A stretch of 64,000 nucleotides of DNA, from the NCBI GenBank assembly GCA_032622095.1, contig CP136066.1, forward strand, positions 104,739,319 to 104,803,318, written 5' to 3'. Origin of the DNA: Siphonodentalium dalli (lineage: Eukaryota > Mollusca > Scaphopoda > Gadilida > Siphonodentaliidae). The translations under genes and the position numbers were made by a program. The notes beneath the pieces were generated by a model. The model was not told the origin of the DNA. It searched no databases and saw only the letters and a program-made list of their open reading frames with translations. Shown piece after piece: positions 3,106-51,925 of this stretch. Numbering within the stretch: the stretch's first letter is position 1; every line of letters starts with the position of its first letter.

Positions 3106-5332
3106 ACTAGCCGATGAGCCCGACCTTGTCCGGGCTATTCAAAAACCAAATTTCAAGTCGATAGCTCTACCCAGCCCGACGTTGTCCGGGCTATTCAAAA
3201 ACGAAATTTCAGCCCGACGTTATCCGGGCTATTCATCCGGCTATTCAAAAACCAAATTTCAAGTCGATAGCTCTACCCGTTTCCGAGATCTGGTCAGCGC
3301 ATGCGCGAAGCTGGCATCGCACGGGCTCGGAGACCCGATAAAATTCGTATCCGGGGCAAGATACATTCACATACCAAATTTCAAGTCGATAGATCCACCG
3401 TTTCCAAGATCTCGTCTGCGCATGCGCGAAGCTGTCCTCGCACGGGCTCGGCGACCCGATAAAATTCGTATCCGGGGCAAGATACATTCACATACCAAAT
3501 TTCAAGTCGATAGCTCAACCCGTTTCCTAGATCTCGTCTGCGCATGCGCGAAACGGGCGCCGCACGGGCTCGCCAATACGACGTTGACGACCAAGTTTCG
3601 TCCCGATCGGTCGAGAATCGTAGATTTGTATAAATGACAGACAGACATACAAACACACAGAGGTCTTCAAAATATATATGAGACTAGCCGATGAGCCCGA
3701 CGTTGTCCGGGCTATTCAAAAACCAAATTTCAAGTCGATAGCTCTACCCGTTTCCGAGATCTGGTCTGCGCATGCGCGAAGCTGGCGTCGCATGGGCTCG
3801 GCGACCCGATAAAATTCATATCCGGGGCAAGATACATTCACATACCAAATTTCAAGTCGATAGCTCCACCCGTTTCCGAGATCTCGTCTGCGCATGCGCG
3901 AAGCTGGCGTCGCACGGGCTCGGCGACCCGATAAAATTCGTATCCGGGGCAAGATACATTCACATACAAAATTTCAAGTCGATAGCTCCACCCGTTTCCG
4001 AGATATCGTCTGCGCATGCGCGAAGCTGGCGTCGCACGGGCTCGGCGACCCGATAAAATTCGTATCCGGGGCAAGATACATTCACATAGCAAATTTCAAG
4101 TCGATAGCTCCACCCGTTTCTGAGATCTGGTCTGCGCATGCGCGAAACGGGCGCCGCACGGGCTCGCCAATACGACAACGTTCACCGCCTGGTAAAACTA
4201 CTCACACGTACCAAGTTTCGTCCCGATCGGTCGAGAATCGTAGATTTGTATAAATGACAGACAGACAGACAAACAAACAAACAAACAGAGGTCTTCAAAA
4301 TATATATGAGACTAGCCGATGAGCCCGACGTTGTCCGGGCTATACAAAAACCAAATTTCAAGTCGTTAGCTCCACCCGTTTCCGAGATCTGGTCTGCGTG
4401 AAGCTGGCGTCACACGGGCTCGGCGACCCGATAAAATTCGTATCCGGGGCAAGATACATTCACATAGCAAATTTCAAGTCGATAGCTCCACCCGTTTCTG
4501 AGATCTCGTCTGCGCATGCGCGAAGTTGGCGTCATATGGGCTCGGCGACCCGATAAAATTCGTATCCGGGGCAAGATACATTCACATGGCAAATTTCAAG
4601 TCGATAGCTCCACCCGTTTCCGAGATCTCGTCTGCGCATGCGCGAAGCTGGCATCGCACGGGCTCGGCGACCCGATAAAATTCGTATCCGGGGCAAGATG
4701 CATTCACATAGCAAATTTCAAGTCGATAGCTCCACCCGTTTCCGAGATCTCGTCTGCGCATGCGCGAAGCGGGCGCCGCACGGGCTCGCCAATACGACAA
4801 CGTCCACCGCCTGGTCAAACTACACACACGTACCAAGTTTCGTCCCGATCGGTCGAGAATCGTAGATTTGTATCAATGACAGACAAACAGACAAACAGAC
4901 AGAGGTCTTCAAAATATATATGAGACTAGCCGATGAGCCCGACGTTGTCCGGGCTATTCAAAAACCAAATTTGAAGTCGATAGCTCCACCCGTTTCCGAG
5001 ATCTGGTCTGCACATGCGCGAAGCTGGCGTCGCACGGGCTCGGCGACCCGATAAAATTCGTATCCGGGGCAAGATACATTCACATACCATATTTCAAGTC
5101 GATGGCTCCACCCGTTTCCGAGATCTGGTCTGCGCATGCGCGAAGCGGGCGCAGCACGGGCTCGGCGACCCGATAAAATTCGTATCCGGGGCAAGATACA
5201 TTCACATAGCAAATTTCAAGTCGATAGCTCCACCCGTTTCTAGATCTCGTCTGCGCATGCGCGAATCGGGCGCCACACGGGCTCGCCAATACGACAACGA
5301 CCACCGCCTGGACAAACTACACACACGTACCA
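3106..5332 (+). repeat. Higher-order satellite: ~122-bp units in ~580-630-bp blocks
   Basis: Four blocks start with ACTAGCCGATGAGCCCGAC (about 3106, 3684, 4312, 4924). The first three end with a tail containing TCGGTCGAGAATCGTAG, an ACAGACAG run and GGTCTTCAAAATATATATGA. Each block holds three or four ~122-bp subunits; ATACATTCACAT recurs at 121-123-bp spacing. Each subunit carries GATAAAATTCGTATCCGGGG and TCTGCGCATGCGCGAAG. Block 1 begins with a short degenerate stretch (3160-3240), and block 4 is cut by the inserted element at 5333. Because the repeat has few stops, many 60-135-codon ORFs appear on both strands. They repeat with the unit and are not genes. The ACAG tail and TATATA end resemble a class of short elements common in lophotrochozoan genomes. 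Confidence 0.92.
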
Positions 5333-29720: not shown

Positions 29721-30179
29721 AAACATGATCACATAAGTGCCACTTCAATGGAGCTTGCTCTGTGATAAACTCCGCAAATGTCATAACTGATACAATTGCC
29801 ACGAAGTAGCAAAGAAGTCATCCTCTTATTGATACTTTATTTATCCTGTCTGAACTACACATCACATAAATAATACGCCGATCAGTAATCATCTGGATAT
29901 CCGGAAAATAGAGCGCTCTCAAGGGTTCTGAACACACTTAATAAATCGAGCCTTTGTGCAAATTGTACGTCTGGTCCGAGTAGAGGCTAAGTTCATGATA
30001 AATCGAAGCGCCATGTACGTCAGCCAAGTTGTCCCATGAGTGGGCAACGAAATGCCAAGGTTCCATATAAAAGAAAACAAAGATTTCACTCGCGTGTTAC
30101 ATTTGTTTTGTCATTGGAATGTTTTCGCACTGGGCGAAAGGTACGGAAGCACAGTAGCGCCACAAATAAAATAATAATT

Positions 30180-30372
30180 ACGGCGTTTAAACGCCCTATT
30201 ACGGCGTTTAAACGCCCTAATACGGCGTTTAAACGCCCTAATTACGGCGTTTAAACACCCTAATTACGGCGTTTAAACGCCCTATTACGGCGTTTAAACG
30301 CCCTAATACGGCGTTTAAACGCCCTAATTACGGCGTTTAAACGCCCTAATTACGGCGTTTAAACGCCCTAAT
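30180..30372. repeat. Left subterminal array of GGCGTTTAAACGCC palindromes (9 units)
   Basis: Nine ~20-22-bp units, each centred on the 14-bp perfect palindrome GGCGTTTAAACGCC with CTAATTA or CTATTA spacers. One unit has a C-to-A style change (AAACACCC). Confidence 0.95.
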
Positions 30373-30450
30373 GCGACATATGTGGAATGACTAGTGGACC
30401 TTCGGACTGAACCTTCGGACTACTGAACCCTACCCGATCAATGTCTGAAC

Positions 30451-30543
30451 AGAATGAGGTCCCCTAGCAGAGGGTGAATTTGGTGATGCTAGCCGCTATG
30501 CGGGTATTATCTCTAAATTCACCCTCTGGGCACCTCATTCTGC
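30451..30543. repeat. Hairpin inside the left terminal repeat
   Basis: GAATGAGGTCCCC...GAGGGTGAATTTGGTG pairs with TCTAAATTCACCCTC...GCACCTCATTCTGC. The same hairpin is present in the right arm (33617-33710), and single arms recur at 62620-62660, 62985-63025 and 63197-63262. Confidence 0.75.
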
Positions 30544-30715
30544 AAATGTCAGGCACCTTATTTCCGGGCTTGATACCACCACTGGTATATGCGTTGGTTT
30601 GGGTGCAATGTGTCTAACCGTGAAACATGTGGTCCCCTGCTATAAGCATATACCCTTCGCTATGTGCATGTTCGACTACATGGGGGAGTTTTGAGTGCAT
30701 TCTAGTTCATTTTGG

Positions 30716-30851
30716 ATTTTCGGAGAATCGGGCCTTCAGAGAATCGGGCCTTCGGAGTTATGGGCTTTCGGAGAATCGGGCTTTCGGAGAATCGGGCCTT
30801 CGGAATTATGGGGTTTCGGAGAATCGGGCCTTCGGAGTTATGGGCTTTCCA
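30716..30851. repeat. ~16-bp minisatellite in the left terminal repeat
   Basis: About eight units alternate between TTTCGGAGAATCGGGCC and TTCGGAGTTATGGGC. The mirror copy is in the right arm at 33305-33440. The repetitive peptide frames (FGESGLRSYGLSENRAFGES) are by-products. Confidence 0.9.
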
Positions 30852-31158
30852 GGGCTGGCATTCTCAGAAATCCGGGCGGGCTAAGACCAGCCCTCCTCAA
30901 TCGGCCTAGGTGGGCTATAGCCCTCCTCAGTGATGATGTCATAGCATGGACATTTTAGCCAACTACAGCGAAATCACATTCACGACAATGGAAATAGTCA
31001 TTATCTGAACTAAACTGCGTTAATACATTTTACAAAGGCAGCCATTCCAAAATGTACTTCACCCCATAGACTTTACCCACCCGAATAAAGGCCATCGGTT
31101 ATAGGGTGACAGAGCCAGAAACATTAATCGTGAGTCACTACTCATATAATGCAGTGGT

Positions 31159-31700
31159 CTTGTTATTGTGTTTGATGCACCAACTAATGGCTAAAATGTA
31201 GACAGTCATTTAATCTTATTAATGGTTCTCAATCTGATTAAGCACCCCTAAATTACTATTTCTTTGACTTCGGGTGTAAAAAATAATTGATTCGAGTCGA
31301 CGAACCTACCCATCAACGCTCAGAGTGATCAGATATCAACTTTTGAAGTTGTTTTACATCTATTGTTTGTGGCACAGAACACGCCGTCAAAAGGATGATC
31401 TCAGTCAAAATTGCGTTAGTATTACCATTTATTTTTAGTTATCCACCTTCGTCCGTTTGAATAAGTGTTTCTGTGGCAATTATCAGTACACATCTCGAGA
31501 AAATTACAAACTTCAAAAATCAATATCTCATCACTCTGAGCTTTGATGGATGGGTTCCTCGACTCGAATCAAATATGTTTTACCCCTGAAGCCAAAGAAA
31601 TAGTAATTTAGGGGTGCTTAATCGGATTGAGTACCATTAATAAGATTAAATGACTGTCTACATTTTAGCCATTAGTTGGTGCATCAAACACAACAAGCCG
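31159..31700. mobile_element. Nested hairpin element in the transposon core
   Basis: About 115-bp inverted ends: GTGTTTGATGCACCAACTAA TGGCTAAAATG at the left pairs with CATTTTAGCCATTAGTTGGT GCATCAAACAC at the right. They continue through CAGTCATTTAATCTTATTAA and AAGCACCCCTAAATTACTAT. The centre holds a CGAGAAAATTACAAACTTC segment shared with 29203-29720. No ORF. Its left edge coincides with the inner edge of the outer left arm. Confidence 0.75.
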
Positions 31701-31716
31701 CCGGAGACGGCGGTAT

Positions 31717-32986
31717 CCCCCGCCGAAATGTGCAGTTGGGGAAGTGCATTCTCAATAAAGTTTACGTTCTCAGTACGTGGTAAATAAGAGGTGGGATTTT
31801 GTCAAAAAGGCTCGCGAACTCATTTTAGGTACTAGTCATGGGAACAAATATACCAAAACTCTTTTAAATCCGTTGATATAAATTTTGAGCAAAATTTAAA
31901 ATATATATATATTTGATCAAATATACCTCAATATCTCCATAACCATGCATAAATATTCTTAGAATGACATTTTACTTCTTGACAGCCCATATCACATGGT
32001 GGTCTGTGTACAGAACTGGAAAAGCATGTGTGTCCATTTTAATATTAGAGAGAAGTAGGTCGAGTGTTCCTTCAAGTATATGTGTCGGCTGCACAACAGA
32101 TTGATGTATTTTGAAGACACATATTTCTCCTGATGGATGTTGAAATTGAAATCACCAGTGCAGATTATTGTAACAAATTTTAAAAAGTCCAATAACTCTG
32201 CTTAAAATAACCGGCCGGACCTGGTTTGCGAACTCATTCTAGATACAGGTCATGTGAACTCATTTACCGAATATCTCTGAAATCCATTGAGATTTGTGGA
32301 AATGAGCCCTGTGACGTCGTCCATTTGCACACACAAAAATAAACGATGTCCAATAACTCTGCTTAAAATATCCTGCCGGACCTGGTTTTCGAACTCGTTC
32401 TAGATACTGATCATGTGCACACAAATAACAAAAATCTTTGAAATCCGTTGACATTTGTGGAAATGAGCCCTGTGACGTTGTCTATGTGCTATTTGGTAAA
32501 TAATAAACAAAGTCCAATAGCTCCGGTAAAAATAACCGGCCGGACCTGGCATGCGAATTCATTCTAGGTAATGGTCAGGTGAACTCATATACCAAATATC
32601 TTTGAAATCCATAGAGATTTGTGGAAATGAGCCCTGTGACGTCGTCTATATGCTATTTGGTAAATTCAACAAAAATAATAAACAGAGTCCAATAACTCTG
32701 GCAAAAATATCCTGCCGGACCTGGCTTGAGAATGCATTCTAGGTAACGGTCAGGTGAAAACTCATATACCAAATATCTTTGAAATCCGTAGACATTTGTT
32801 CAAGTTCTGACTCGATCAAATTCGGGACAGACGGACGGACGGACGTACTGGTCAGAGTATAGTTGTGGGGTGACCGCACTGGTCAGATAATACTTGTGGG
32901 TTGCGATCTTTTGTTTGAGTAATTTGTGGGGTGCAACCCACAACTGACGATTTTTTAAAGAGCGTATTTTTAAATTTGGCGGGGGA
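31717..32986. repeat. Core tandem repeats (~160-175 bp) with GACGGACGG tail
   Basis: Starts TATCCCCCGCCGAAAT and ends (inverted) with ATTTGGCGGGGGATAATA, so it may be an element in its own right. Inside, four to five units share GAACTCATTCTAGGTA, CTTTGAAATCCGTTGA, GAGATTTGTGGAAATGAGCC and CAATAACTCTG...ACCGGCCGGACCTGG. A GACAGACGGACGGACGGAC run at 32828-32846 precedes a block (32850-32965) that is an inverted copy of 43328-43460. Confidence 0.7.
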
Positions 32987-33784
32987 TAATAACAAGAGCA
33001 CTGCATTGTATGAGTAGTGACTCACGATTAATGTTTCTGACTCTATCACGCTATAACCGATGGCCTTTATTCGGGTAGGTAAAGTCTATGGGGTGAGGTA
33101 CATTTTGGAATGGCTCCCTTTGTAAAATGTATTAACGCAGTTTAGTTCAGATAATGACTATTTCCATTGTCGTGAATGTGATTTCGCTGTAGTTGGCTAA
33201 AATGTCCATGCTATGACATCATTCACTGAGGAGGGCTATAGCCCACCTAGGCTGATTGAGGAGGGCTGGTCTTAGCCCGCCCGGATTTCTGAGAATGCCA
33301 GCCCTGGAAAGCCCATAACTCCGAAGGCCCGATTCTCCGAAACCCCATAATTCCGAAGGCCCGATTCTCCGAAAGCCCGATTCTCCGAAAGCCCATAACT
33401 CCGAAGGTCCGATTCTCCGAAGGCCCGATTCTCCGAAAATCCAAAATGAACTAGAATGCACTCAAAACACCCCCATGTAGTCGAACATGCACATAGCGAA
33501 GGGTATATGCTTATAGCAGGGGACCACATGTTTCACGGTTAGACACATTGCACCCAAACCAACGCATATACCAGTGGTGGTATCAAGCCCGGAAATAAGG
33601 TGCCTGACATTTGCAGAATGAGGTCCCCAGAGGGTGAATTTAGAGATATTACCCCGCATAGCGGCTAGCATCACCAAATTCACCCTTTGCTAGGGGACCT
33701 CATTCTGTTCAGACATTGATCGGGTAGGGTTCAGTAGTCCGAAGGTTCAGTCCGGAGGTTCACTAGTCATTCCATATATGTCGC

Positions 33785-33915
33785 ATTAGGGCGTTTAAAC
33801 GCCGTAATTAGGGCGTTTAAACGCCGTATTAGGGCGTTTAAACGCCGTAATAGGGCGTTTAAACGCCGTAATAGGGCGTTTAAACGTCGTAATTAGGGCG
33901 TTTAAACGCCCTAAT
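33785..33915. repeat. Right subterminal array of GGCGTTTAAACGCC palindromes (6 units)
   Basis: Mirror of the left array but with only six units. One unit is altered to GGCGTTTAAACGTCG. The copy-number difference (6 against 9) is the clearest divergence between the two arms. Confidence 0.93.
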
Positions 33916-33956
33916 TATTATTTTATTTGTGGCGCTACAGTGCTTCCGTAGAAAGG

Positions 33957-35037
33957 ATAACGCTTTCTATATTTAATAGTCATTGACGAGTGGTTCATTT
34001 AGCCATTATTCAGATACTAAGCTCACCAAACAACCATATTGTTATTTGAACATTTCCTACCAAACATGAATCCTTCTGCACTTGTATTATCTTATCTGTC
34101 TGTCGTCTGCTTTTATTATTTGACATCCCTAAAATAAGCAATAGATCATTCCAAAGTATACTTTTAGAGCTGAATGGGAGAATCCATTCCGTATAGAAAG
34201 GGTTAAGTAGAGATGGTTTACACAAGAAATATAGATCAGTAACAGTCTGCATATAAGTAATTTTACTTGTCCAAAATGTGACAAAAACGAGCAATTATTA
34301 TGTTTAACTCTTAAAGATGGTCTATCTCTTTGTAAACATGTGCTATATAGTTACCGGGGTATAAAGATGGTCTATATCTTTGTAAACATGTGCTATATAG
34401 TTACCGGGGTTTAAAGATGGTCTATCTCTTTGTAAACATGTGCTATATAGTTACCGGGGTATACAATATTATACATGGATCGAAGATCCCTGTCCGGAAA
34501 TGCTTCTATCGATTAATATTGATTATCTTTCGAATATTTTCTGGTCTAAAACGTGTGGTTGTTTAGGTAACGAACAATGGTGATTACTGTTAATAGAGAC
34601 CAGAAATGTTAATGTGTAATGTTGTCACAAATAAACGTTAGACTCATTATCACCTATAGGTATGGAATTAAACAATAAAAACATCTGGGACATTTGACAT
34701 TCTAATCGTAACTAGGGGAACACCCTAATGATCTTTATCACTATATGGTGTCGTCTGCATGGTCTGTTATAAAAATAGAGTGTCCCATGTAATCATTTCA
34801 TTATATAATAAAATATTCGAAATAACATAAAATATTAATTGATAGTGGAAGCGTTTCCGGACAGGGGTCTTCAATTCATATTTATTATTTTATACCCACG
34901 AAACTATTGTTAAATGAAGAGATAATCCATCTTTGAACAATAGTGGTAATACATCGCTTTCAAATCCCCATAAGCCTATACATTCTCCGGGTGTAAAACA
35001 ATACATCACAATGGCATACAGCTGATTTGGTAAAACC
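33957..35037. other. No gene; repeat fragment and 50-bp minisatellite
   Basis: The stretch 34130-34215 shares ATTCCAAAGTATACTTTTAG-like and GTATAGAAAGGGTTAA words with 60200-60285. A tandem repeat follows at 34311-34460. The rest is AT-rich with no recognised exon. Confidence 0.45.
34311..34460. repeat. Minisatellite, 3 units of 50 bp
   Basis: Three near-identical units, each TTAAAGATGGTCTATCTCTT ... ATATAGTTACCGGGG (starts 34311, 34361, 34411). The units differ at only a few positions, so the expansion is young. Confidence 0.95.
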
Positions 35038-47995: not shown

Positions 47996-50900
47996 TCAAT
48001 TTCTTAACAAGGCCAAGCAATACCATAGCTTGAGACTTGATTTGGCGAAAAAGTGTACTGCAAATGGTAATGAACAATTTCCCATTTCTACTAAAGAAGA
48101 TGGTATATTCCCCAGAAATATGGATAACTGCTTTGCCCCTGTCAACTCGTCCATATACATAAAAGCATCTATTCCGAACGTGTTAATGATATCGTACCAA
48201 ATATTATTCCTTGTATTCGATATGGAAGTGCAGTTTATTATGGTATGTTCTATAATGCATTGATATTGCGTATTACATAGTAGACAAAGCCCGTTATCTT
48301 TATATGCGGTGTGAGCGATAAGTCTAGCAATCATAAGAAATGTAAATTTTTCATCTGGATAAAGCCTGCATGTTTGCCACAGTAACGAGGAATTGAGTTT
48401 GGTTTGTGTAAGTCCATATTGTGCCAGATCACTATTTGATTCAATACTCTTTCTCCACTCAAGTGCATTTATAGTGTTAATCTCAGTTTTTACGATATTC
48501 TTCCAGTATGATTTGGTGGGAAACGTGCTTTCGAGCGTATAGCGTTCTAGGTACTCATATAAGTTATACCTCTTTAGAACTGTAGAAATATCTGCCATGA
48601 AGGATTGTGGGTGAGAAATTCCAAGAATATGACTATGAAGCCGCACTAGGAACACGGATTTAGCGGTCTTATTTGTATTTAGTCTACATAATGTTGCTAG
48701 TAAGCTTAATTTCCTTTTATCAATATAGGATTCAAGCCCACCGCACCCCAGAAGCCCCTGTACGATGCAAGTTCTGGTTTGTTGTGGGAATCCTTGAATA
48801 TGTTTTAGGCAAAATCTATGTGCTCTCTCCGTGTATGCATGAGAAACATTAGATATATTCCAGAACAGTTCACTACCGTACAGAGCCTTAGGGAGGACGA
48901 TGGACTTGTAGATACTGAAACAACTGTATGGGGTGATACCGCCTGCGTATAATCCTGCATTGGTCAGCGATAGATATGTGCCTTTGAGTTTTGTGCAAAT
49001 TTTGTTTGCAAGTTTTGAGTTAAAGCTGAATTTCTCAATAGGGATTCCCAAGTGTGTTCCAGATTCGACTTCATGTATTACACTGTTGCCAAATTGCCAC
49101 GATCTCTGTGATTTAATGAATTCACGTTGCGTTTCGTTGAAAACAATGATGAATGTCTTGGATGAGTTATAAAGGTATCTCCATTTCAAGCTATATTCTA
49201 GACAAATATTATACAAAGTACGTAGGCCTGACTCTGAAAGTGATAGAAGTACCATGTCATCCGCCTGTACTGGCGAAGTGCACTTTATATCATGCATGTG
49301 GAGACCACATAAAGAATTTTCCAACTCGTATATGAGGTCGTCTACATACATCATATAAAATAGAGGTGAGAGGATAGAGCCTTGTCTAGCTCCTTGAAAG
49401 ATGCCAAACCAGTCTGAGAAAGTATTTCTATACCGTACGCAGCATTCGATACCCGTCAGGAGTGCTTTGAAAGTGTGCCATATAATACCATTGAATCCTC
49501 TTTTATGCAATTTGTACAAAAGACCATTTAACCAGACGGAATCAAACGCTTTTGAGACGTCTAGAAAACAGGCGAATAATTTACTGTGCGTCTCTTTAGT
49601 GTAGGAAATGCACTCCTGTAATAAGTACGAAGTTGCCATACAGCTTACTCCGCTCTGAAAACCATGTTGGAGTGGGTTGATGGCTATATTGTTTGGCGTG
49701 TATGATTGCAAGCGCATGAGTATCACTTTTTCATATAGTTTATATAAAGCAGGCATGATTGTAATTGGTCTGTAGCTGTCAAATGCTTGTTTTGACTTTT
49801 TACCGCCTTTATATAGAGATATCATCACTCCTTTCTTGGCATTGTTAGGAACATATGAAAATTCTAACATCTTACTGAAAAGGTGGCACAATTTACAAAC
49901 TATGCACGGTGCGCTATAAACAATGTGTTCATTTGTTATCGAGTCATGTCCCGCTGCTTTATTCCTGTTGAGTTTAGGTATAATATCGGTCAACTCTGAT
50001 TCACTAACTGGACAGCAGAGAATTTTATCAAGGTCGGTATATTTGTCTTTTTTAATAGACGATACATATGAATTAACCGATTTAAGATGATTAGCGTCAA
50101 ACTGCTCATTTTGTAGTGGTATGAATAGGTTTCCATAGTATGATGGCCATGCATTAGATATAGACTGGTTAGTACGGAGAGTTTCACCGTTGTGCACGAA
50201 ATGTGACGGCGATAGCGTGTTACGTTCTCTGCGTTTGTAATTGACCAATCGATAGAATGTATTCTGATCTATTTCTGCGCACTTGTCGATTTCGGCATCA
50301 CGGTCCCGCATAAATTGTTCTGAAATTTTGCGATGTGTACGTCGAAAAGAGCGTTTTGCTTCTTTATAATGGCGATATGAATTTGAACCTTCGTAATGAG
50401 GTTTGCCTTCTGCCAACCAGCATCTGCGACACTCGCGCATATTAAAGTGGGCGGATTTTAACGATTTGTTCCAATATGGTTTAATATGACTACGGAATTT
50501 TGATTTAGGAACAACTTCTGAGGCTGCATTACTGAGAGCAGAAACTAAGGAATTATAATAGTTATCAATCGAAGATACACTATCTATTTCAACAGTAGGG
50601 CAATTTTTACCCACGTTTGTCGCAAACGTACGAGCGAGTGTCGGATTTGAATTCAGAGCTGACCATTTTAATTTTGACGAGCACTGTACATGGGAGGCCT
50701 GAGGCTGAAGTACTTCGTCATTCATACATAATACAATGGGACGATGCGTTGATACGTCGATGCTATCATCTTGTAAAATATCAACTGTTTGTATTTTGTG
50801 GCTCATTGCTTTATGAATAAGGAAATGGTCTATAATTGAACCGGAATCAGGATATGTCGGTGGTACGAAAGTTTTTACCGTGGTAGTTTTGAACGATTTT

Positions 50901-51499
50901 TCAATTGGAGAGCAAACACCTTTGTCCATAAACATATTTGTCAATAGCGTGCCTCTGTAATTTGGGCGAAAGGAATTTACGTTAAAGTCCCCCATAACGA
51001 TTACAGTTCCCAACGAACTATAATAGTCAAATAAATTTGACACTTTCTCAATATACTTTGAGAAAAAATCGTCAGAGTAATTGCTGGAAGGAAGATATAC
51101 TTGGAATATGTAGTAAAATGTCCATTGATTAATGTATAGTTGAATTCCAATAATTCTATCATCTTCAGTGTCGATAATTGATACATTATCATTCCACTGC
51201 TTATGCCAAAAAATAGCTACTCCGGCTTTTGGTCGACCCTTTTTATCAGGAGGGCCGGGTGTTGCGTCACATACAGTGTAGGAGTTATAGTATTGTGATA
51301 TATGGTCCATGAACGATATATTGGATTCCTTCAGCCACATGTCGGTTGCGCTCCAAAAGACACATAATATTATTCGCTTTTGAATTTTTCTCAGTATCGA
51401 AATAGCTCGATAGATGTCTGAACTACCTTTGAAGTAATGAAAAATACAACTGAATACGGTGTTTGGGTCCCAAACACAAAACAGCCATTTGCACGACAT
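47996..51499 (-). CDS. LINE ORF2: AP endonuclease + reverse transcriptase, intact 1167 codons
   Basis: One uninterrupted frame encodes the replication protein of a non-LTR retrotransposon (jockey/CR1 supergroup by motif type). An APE-like endonuclease occupies residues ~55-262 (GDFN 170-173, IDH 223-225, catalytic STHRP 250-254). A basic linker is followed by the RT at ~550-800: GGKKSKQAFDSYRPITIMP, LDVSKAFDSVW (646-656), GARQGSILSP (703-712) and the catalytic QADDMVLL (745-752). The C-terminus has a Cys/His cluster (CLLCNTQYQCIIEHTIINC). It would nick DNA and prime reverse transcription at the nick. The ATG at 51499 is the first in frame. The frame stays open without ATG to about 51617, so the true start is unsure and the first part of the endonuclease looks unusual. 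No ORF1 is seen upstream. The lack of stops over 3.5 kb suggests a young copy. Confidence 0.95.
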   Translation of the reverse strand: MSCKWLFCVWDPNTVFSCIFHYFKGSSDIYRAISILRKIQKRIILCVFWSATDMWLKESNISFMDHISQYYNSYTVCDATPGPPDKKGRPKAGVAIFWHKQWNDNVSIIDTEDDRIIGIQLYINQWTFYYIFQVYLPSSNYSDDFFSKYIEKVSNLFDYYSSLGTVIVMGDFNVNSFRPNYRGTLLTNMFMDKGVCSPIEKSFKTTTVKTFVPPTYPDSGSIIDHFLIHKAMSHKIQTVDILQDDSIDVSTHRPIVLCMNDEVLQPQASHVQCSSKLKWSALNSNPTLARTFATNVGKNCPTVEIDSVSSIDNYYNSLVSALSNAASEVVPKSKFRSHIKPYWNKSLKSAHFNMRECRRCWLAEGKPHYEGSNSYRHYKEAKRSFRRTHRKISEQFMRDRDAEIDKCAEIDQNTFYRLVNYKRRERNTLSPSHFVHNGETLRTNQSISNAWPSYYGNLFIPLQNEQFDANHLKSVNSYVSSIKKDKYTDLDKILCCPVSESELTDIIPKLNRNKAAGHDSITNEHIVYSAPCIVCKLCHLFSKMLEFSYVPNNAKKGVMISLYKGGKKSKQAFDSYRPITIMPALYKLYEKVILMRLQSYTPNNIAINPLQHGFQSGVSCMATSYLLQECISYTKETHSKLFACFLDVSKAFDSVWLNGLLYKLHKRGFNGIIWHTFKALLTGIECCVRYRNTFSDWFGIFQGARQGSILSPLFYMMYVDDLIYELENSLCGLHMHDIKCTSPVQADDMVLLSLSESGLRTLYNICLEYSLKWRYLYNSSKTFIIVFNETQREFIKSQRSWQFGNSVIHEVESGTHLGIPIEKFSFNSKLANKICTKLKGTYLSLTNAGLYAGGITPYSCFSIYKSIVLPKALYGSELFWNISNVSHAYTERAHRFCLKHIQGFPQQTRTCIVQGLLGCGGLESYIDKRKLSLLATLCRLNTNKTAKSVFLVRLHSHILGISHPQSFMADISTVLKRYNLYEYLERYTLESTFPTKSYWKNIVKTEINTINALEWRKSIESNSDLAQYGLTQTKLNSSLLWQTCRLYPDEKFTFLMIARLIAHTAYKDNGLCLLCNTQYQCIIEHTIINCTSISNTRNNIWYDIINTFGIDAFMYMDELTGAKQLSIFLGNIPSSLVEMGNCSLPFAVHFFAKSSLKLWYCLALLRN

Positions 51500-51925
51500 G
51501 GAAAAGAAAAGAGCATTCCGTGTTAGTCTATTCCTGATATGGTAGCAATAAAGAACGTTTGTCTGATTTCTCGAAAAAAGTTGAAAAATGGCTGTGACTT
51601 TGGCAAGTGTTTTTCAGCGAATATGAAGCCGGTATATCAATAGTTAGTTTATTTATCGACCGATCGTATCCGTCGCTCCAAATTACGCAGAACATTGGAG
51701 GCTCGAATAAGCCATGTCCGTTTAACTGTTCGTTCTACCTTGCAGAAGTTTGTATACTGTGTTACTGGATTTTTCAGAATAAAATGGGAAAAGGAAAAAT
51801 GCTCAAACGTGCATGTTATTTGTTCTTATGTGCTTATGGCTTCGACACTTCGCCGCGTTTGCAAGTGTCCACTGCCAAAGCTAGCGCATTTCGTTTTCAT
51901 TCAGCCGCCTTCAAAGCAGAAGAAA
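51500..51925 (-). mobile_element. 5' flank (putative 5' UTR) of the intact LINE
   Basis: CGTGTTAGTCTATTCCTGAT, TGAAAAATGGCTGTGAC, ATGAAGCCGGTATATCAATA and GGAGGCTCGAATAAGCCATG recur in the same order at 56265-56640 and 59270-59560. This shows the segment belongs to the same repeat family as the ORF. Where the 5' end lies is not defined, as no target-site duplication was found. Confidence 0.6.

Follow-up and report, generated by a model that had tools for sequence, protein, structure and literature searches.

Foldback-type transposons such as FB carry long, internally repetitive inverted repeats and constitute a structural class, not a lineage. For the IS3EU/GingerRoot superfamily, the available part of one report (PMC10045372) states that the termini of complete IS3EU families are always TA..TA and that their target site duplications are usually of 6 bp. 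The accessible text of another (PMC12730594) gives a set of fungal IS3EU the ends TAYGG..CCRTA, with 6-bp duplications. Here we describe an element to which both descriptions apply. It is located in a 64,000-nucleotide stretch (the window) of the scaphopod Siphonodentalium dalli (assembly GCA_032622095.1, contig CP136066.1, positions 104,739,319 to 104,803,318 of the forward strand). The best explanation, to which we give a probability of about 0.8, is that it represents a recently amplified, non-autonomous foldback IS3EU/GingerRoot family, which would be mobilised in trans by the rva_4-type transposase of relatives of 39–41 kb.

Both termini of the element are present in the window, TACGGAAGCAC beginning at 30142 and GTGCTTCCGTA ending at 33950, and GAAAGG flanks both (Table 1). 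A first-pass annotation of this DNA had described a DNA transposon consisting mostly of inverted repeat, with arms of about 1 kb, a 6-bp duplication and no transposase, and these statements hold. The main blocks of the arms are 97–99% reverse-complementary (30502–30933 with 33223–33654, 99%; 30933–31167 with 32988–33222, 97%; 30329–30504 with 33653–33828, 98%). The arms measure about 1.0 kb, or about 1.2 kb if an inner block is counted in which 31163–31350 and 31509–31696 are 91% complementary; degenerate relatives of this inner inverted repeat were found outside the window, e.g. at L042:3144–3580. Towards its outer end each arm consists of palindromic 21/22-bp units repeated in tandem (nine on the left, six on the right), the more unusual feature of the element; the inner part of the arm contains 16-bp tandem repeats. 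Neither kind of repeat is mentioned in the first-pass annotation. Long, internally repetitive inverted repeats form most of the element, as in the foldback elements Galileo, Tetris and Tm1 to the extent that the available sources describe them. The right arm is broken by 31697–32987, in which Tandem Repeats Finder reported 3.7 copies of a 164-bp tandem repeat (32184–32799). This segment was considered as a nested transposon with the duplication AACAAG, but the uninterrupted arm does not match a clean duplication, and it is therefore termed an interruption only. No open reading frame of 170 aa or more is present inside the element, and none of the 129 genome matches of the transposase described below falls in the window. 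The window copy is thus a non-autonomous member.

Searches of the host genome were made in the 2.23-Gb assembly of nine contigs. Allowing up to three mismatches, the 31-bp terminus occurs at 168 places, 84 on each strand, versus 0 for the reversed control, and all of the first 100 places listed are without mismatch. Identical 6-bp flanks were observed for 22 of the 24 end pairs checked, which comprise the window, 15 fetched regions, two giant relatives presented below (both with duplications) and six pairs from other loci. Two of these 22 pairs repeat the flanks of two others through segmental duplication, which leaves 20 of 22 independent insertions. The duplications tend to S-W-W-W-W-S: in a tally of both strands and all 22 pairs, segmental duplicates included, the outer positions are G or C in 33/44 cases, and the two central ones are A or T in 39/44. 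Sequence outside the ends varies between copies, segmental duplicates excepted, so that homology ends at the proposed termini.

Element length is 3,262–4,186 bp in 20 of the 22 measured spans, the others being of 329 bp (L052, array only) and 5,057 bp (L055). The interior junction, where the inner inverted repeat meets the interruption of the right arm, is the same in 12 of the 15 fetched regions, which points to amplification of one founder with that interior. Parts are missing at this junction in L046 and L049, probably by deletion, and arm and interior sequence is wholly absent from L052. Arm segments show about 1.4–2.4% difference, within as well as between copies. As the two arms of a copy are not as a rule mutually closest, the near-identity of the arms probably reflects youth and not ongoing conversion, and by this measure the window family appears young and recently amplified. 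Copies with the same flanks were seen at two places each for L012/L016 and L014/L011 (C8:171.50 and 171.93 Mb), for L021/L028 and L022/L027 (C1:144.26 and 144.44 Mb) and for L029 and L030 (C2:68.21 and 68.15 Mb). These copies, in one case inverted, reflect either recent segmental duplication of the region around the element or duplicates in the assembly.

The first-pass annotation had proposed searching for a longer element that shares these ends and encodes a transposase, and two giants of this kind were found. The C7 giant extends from its plus end at 164195858 to its minus end at 164235351 (39,494 bp) with AAAGGG on each side, and the C8 giant (C8:155464449–155505324, 40,876 bp) has the same ends and GTATCA on each side. 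Both have the ends TACGG..CCGTA and a palindrome array at each end, so that ends and arrays are common to short and long elements. The C7 arrays count 19 units on the left and 28 on the right; the C8 giant has 30 on the right and at least 10 on the left within 451 bases. Beyond the left array of the giant come stretches matching the arm of the window element (L039:1452–1590, 86–92% identical, and 3857–4426, inverted, 91–92%). Internal to the right array of the C7 giant, on the minus strand, lies an rva_4 transposase gene (Pfam E-value 6e-27; rve just 2e-4). Its conserved block begins about 750 bp inside the right end, with the array and a short stretch between. At the corresponding place the C8 giant has a 288-aa open frame that is 99% identical to the C7 transposase. 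The C-terminal part of the transposase is found in a separate frame about 4.5 kb away (L042:4221–4574), which by eye looks like a second exon. rva_4 transposases were also recognised in two related families (4e-26 and 1e-29). D133, D192 and E233 are invariant in the four transposases aligned and, judged by eye, could form the DDE triad. Relatives of the transposase were sought in IMG/VR viral contigs, where 0 of 100 pattern matches were confirmed. The C7 element also contains frames for a Gypsy-type reverse transcriptase, RNase H and integrase (L040, 260–2863), which we take as a nested retrotransposon.

The termini (TA..TA, here TACGG..CCGTA), the 6-bp duplications and the integrase-type DDE transposase of the same-ended long members, of rva_4 type, all fit membership of IS3EU/GingerRoot, the window copy itself encoding no transposase. 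The first-pass annotation, which named IS3EU as a candidate, thus appears to have been right on this point. Its suggestion that the family may be undescribed is possible for the family; it does not extend to the superfamily, which is already known, so that at most the family can be new. Unlike described IS3EU, these elements have terminal repeats made of palindrome arrays and long forms of 28–41 kb. The family, its palindrome-array ends, the 28–41 kb size and a HECT-like companion gene (see below) were not found in the open-access literature searched, which likewise held nothing direct on palindrome arrays in IS3EU or on HECT genes in transposons. In the available text of a work on oyster satellites, two satellites carry the annotation IS3EU and no such palindrome arrays are mentioned (PMC8268682); a text on KolobokP (PMC9587614) contributed nothing relevant.

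By analogy with other non-autonomous elements, the transposase of the 39–41 kb relatives would act in trans on the short foldback copies. It would cut at TACGG..CCGTA, and joining of the element to its target across a 6-bp stagger would generate the 6-bp duplications. Several points weigh against this reading. Two of the 24 end pairs (L044 and L055) are without duplication, and a search of the genome for the empty site of the window insertion found none; the right flank is a dispersed repeat that starts close to the junction. Only two giants were recognised for the window's own family, and in the C7 copy what looks like a long intron splits the transposase gene. No relative of the transposase was retrieved from PDB by a profile search, and the structure models were too poor to be used (pLDDT 48.9 for the transposase and 35.3 for the HECT-like protein).

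In the palindrome arrays of the window family (family 1), the unit GGCGTTTAAACGCC is a 14-bp palindrome in the frame TA-N-14-N-TA, and perfect units number 313/348 in short elements and 86/87 in giants. Steps between units are of 21 bp (227 cases) or 22 bp (164), i.e. 391/395 with four exceptions, with a mean of 21.4. The first palindrome lies 40 bp from the end in 18/18 left ends (the window, the 15 fetched regions and both giants). Family 2, whose transposase is about 55% identical to that of the window family, has the ends TACGGCGGCCTGGAACCGCCAC and shows the same geometry with another palindrome: its units CCTGATATATCAGG stand in the frame TA-N-14-N-TA, the steps are 75 of 21 bp and 60 of 22 bp (mean 21.4), and the five ends observed (one left, four right) again have an offset of 40. 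A 28,218-bp member (C4:26576442–26604659) has GTTTTA on each side and carries both the transposase and the HECT-like gene. The motif TACGG-N12-GCCAC at the very end is common to families 1 and 2, and we take it as the probable core recognition and cutting site.

In two further families the arrays adjoin other transposases; here the analysis covered the neighbourhood of the arrays. In family 3, whose neighbouring transposase is 58% identical, the array consists of 65 units of TCCTAATTAGGA with steps of 21 or 22 bp, and it keeps the TA-N-14-N-TA frame with the outer pair of the 14 mismatched. The array, at L061 1–1362 (C3:35.07 Mb), adjoins the transposase frame and runs off the locus; the orientation of its units flips near the inner end. 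Family 4 has 42 units of TCGTGGCCACGA beside a transposase 49% identical. In a gapped-pattern search for TACGG ends before the third palindrome, the result was weak (8 matches versus 4 in the reversed control), while TACGG-N{22,50}-TCGTGGCCACGA occurred at 463 places versus 3 in the control; no single element was seen that ties the latter to the fourth transposase. Both searches call for cautious reading. These TACGG-ended repeats with the fourth palindrome are a more numerous group, and many begin with TACGGTGGCTGGTTTAGGACATGG. Compared with earlier proposals of multiple transposase sites in repetitive ends, what is new here is that the palindromes of related families have wholly different letters while the pitch stays the same. 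We read the arrays as putative phased binding sites that may have been re-specified between families. Most likely they would be sites for a dimeric DNA-binding protein of the element, either the transposase N-terminus or another product, which would gather on the arrays at both ends. With a pitch of about two helix turns the palindromes would all face the same side of the DNA, an arrangement suited to a row of protein dimers.

A second gene appears to accompany the transposase. Further left of it, the C8 giant has a 661-aa frame, the C7 version of which is interrupted by a frame change. The window family's own protein scores below the Pfam cut-off for HECT (0.066), relatives from two other families score above it (E-values 6e-7 and 2e-7), and a profile of three HECT-like proteins found HECT E3 ligases in PDB at 7e-6. 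Eleven of 24 HECT-like loci have a transposase match within 40 kb, all convergent, versus 0.04 expected by a simple uniform estimate. This count used 45 of the 129 transposase matches, namely the 46 strongest minus one adjoining another, and the other 13 HECT-like loci are without a neighbour among those 45. Several of the 11 loci are near-identical copies, which reduces them to about seven distinct lineages. As in TET-carrying fungal IS3EU, in so far as the text available covers them, a long multi-gene form has a second gene opposite to the transposase, which in the fungal elements is the alpha-kinase gene. The fungal elements differ in carrying alpha-kinase and TET/JBP genes in place of the HECT-like gene.

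These observations lead us to a tentative proposal, which we put at somewhat less than even odds. A giant IS3EU lineage would mark its ends with arrays of phased dimer sites (4 to 65 palindromes, spaced by about two helix turns). Each family would have switched to a palindrome of its own, with the pitch unchanged and, for the two best-linked families, with frame and cut-site distance unchanged as well. The arrays would offer an element protein a platform for loading, comparable to a centromere or to iterons, and the gene of the HECT-like ligase would be conserved as a second gene whose product controls host or transposase proteins.

Alternatively, the arrays could be neutral tandem repeats produced by slippage or unequal exchange, palindromic by accident or from the foldback structure, and bound by no protein. 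This is the strongest competitor, although we consider it unlikely. Unit number drifts freely between arms (21/10 in L054, 11/4 in L057, 9/6 in the window), and none of 58 palindrome substitutions inside arrays has a compensating mirror change, so that the uniformity of the arrays may stem from recent amplification rather than from selection. Foldback elements of other superfamilies likewise have internally repetitive ends: Galileo belongs to the P superfamily, and the part of PMC3573991 available reports that repeat numbers of Galileo F vary independently between arms. The same text mentions a proposal that repeats in repetitive ends are secondary transposase sites. In addition to its superfamily, Galileo differs by the size of its repeats, about 210 bp in Galileo F as described there versus palindromic units of 21/22 bp here. 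Pitch, frame and distance to the end are more variable in the third and fourth families: steps in family 4 are of 20 or 22 bp (one of 26) without the TA-N-14-N-TA frame, three end-like matches place the third palindrome 51, 51 and 37 bp in, and the fourth lies 28–55 bp in (39–46 bp for 22 of the 33 matches displayed with their sequence). The fixed offset of 40 bp is thus a property of families 1 and 2 only. L066, beside a transposase 53% identical, has no palindrome array in its available flank, so this architecture is not universal. Against neutrality, perfect palindromes of 12–14 bp, different in each of four families, recur every 21 bp or so next to related transposases, the TA-N-14-N-TA frame is retained in three of the four despite unrelated cores, and the offset of the first palindrome is exactly 40 bp in the two families with transposase-linked ends. 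A palindrome of 12–14 bp would rarely be expected in a random 21-bp unit.

A less probable alternative concerns the arms. Gene conversion between the two arms of a single copy, and not recent amplification of a founder, could keep them alike. Base 12 of the terminus is the same (A or T) at both ends in 25 of 28 pairs, picked by eye among the 100 places listed, for which chance is 5e-5 by an estimate that treats segmental duplicates as independent. Sequence comparisons covered two arm segments with 13 copies each, 3 of 16 being dropped in each case as lacking two opposite matches covering 85%. Segment A differs by 1.42% within copies versus 1.59% between copies (permutation p 0.03). For segment B, however, p was 0.08, and the partner arm was nearest, or jointly nearest, in only 4/26 and 1/26 arms. 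The agreement at base 12 is explained by two subfamilies, A-ended and T-ended. Gene conversion between arms is therefore not clearly supported.

Polintons have AG..CT-like ends and long inverted repeats, and are long multi-gene elements. The window element could be a non-autonomous derivative of Polinton/Maverick, with which it shares a 6-bp duplication (given for Polinton/Maverick in the available part of PMC10045372), long inverted repeats and the occurrence of very long, multi-gene relatives. This is very improbable, as the ends are TACGG..CCGTA and the integrase beside the array is of rva_4 type (6e-27, with rve at 2e-4 only). A Pfam scan of eight frames of the C7 giant, which was not exhaustive, revealed neither a DNA polymerase nor a packaging ATPase nor a capsid. 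Dada, the other candidate of the first-pass annotation, is the least probable of all: it shares the 6-bp duplication only, and the same-ended long relatives have, beside the array, an rva_4-type transposase and not a Dada transposase, which is of the C/DxxH class according to the accessible text of PMC10045372.

IS3EU is a little-studied superfamily, and in this genome a young non-autonomous family occurs together with its likely long partner. At least four families with unrelated array palindromes beside related transposases would constitute a natural experiment in the joint change of protein and site. Phased dimer sites could provide a concrete reason for the recurrence of long repetitive ends in foldback elements, and a HECT-like gene, if it regularly accompanies the transposase, would represent a new type of passenger.

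Table 1. Coordinates of the window element and its parts.
Feature	Position	Strand	Remark
Whole element, 3,809 bp	30142..33950	.	non-autonomous foldback element, probably IS3EU-type
Left target site duplication	30136..30141	+	GAAAGG
Right target site duplication	33951..33956	+	GAAAGG
Left terminus	30142..30163	+	TACGG-N12-GCCAC, motif common to the ends of the 28-kb related family
Left palindrome array	30182..30367	+	9 units of GGCGTTTAAACGCC (up to 2 substitutions), 21/22-bp pitch
Left arm, non-array part	30372..31167	+	16-bp tandem repeats at 30718–30837
Inner inverted repeat	31163..31696	.	188-nt arms, 91%, 158-nt spacer
Sequence interrupting right arm	31697..32987	.	164-bp tandem repeats
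Right arm, non-array part	32988..33784	-	16-bp tandem repeats at 33319–33438
Right palindrome array	33790..33910	-	6 units; last palindrome stops 40 bp short of the right end

The right flank of the element (33957–34040) is a dispersed repeat, 77–83% identical at the other places listed, and most of its copies start no more than a few bases from the insertion point. Elsewhere in the window, a 1,205-aa open frame on the minus strand (47996–51613) reads like a non-LTR retrotransposon protein, in which visual inspection suggests endonuclease and reverse transcriptase motifs. About 17 degenerate 122-bp tandem repeats were reported by Tandem Repeats Finder at 3243–5285.

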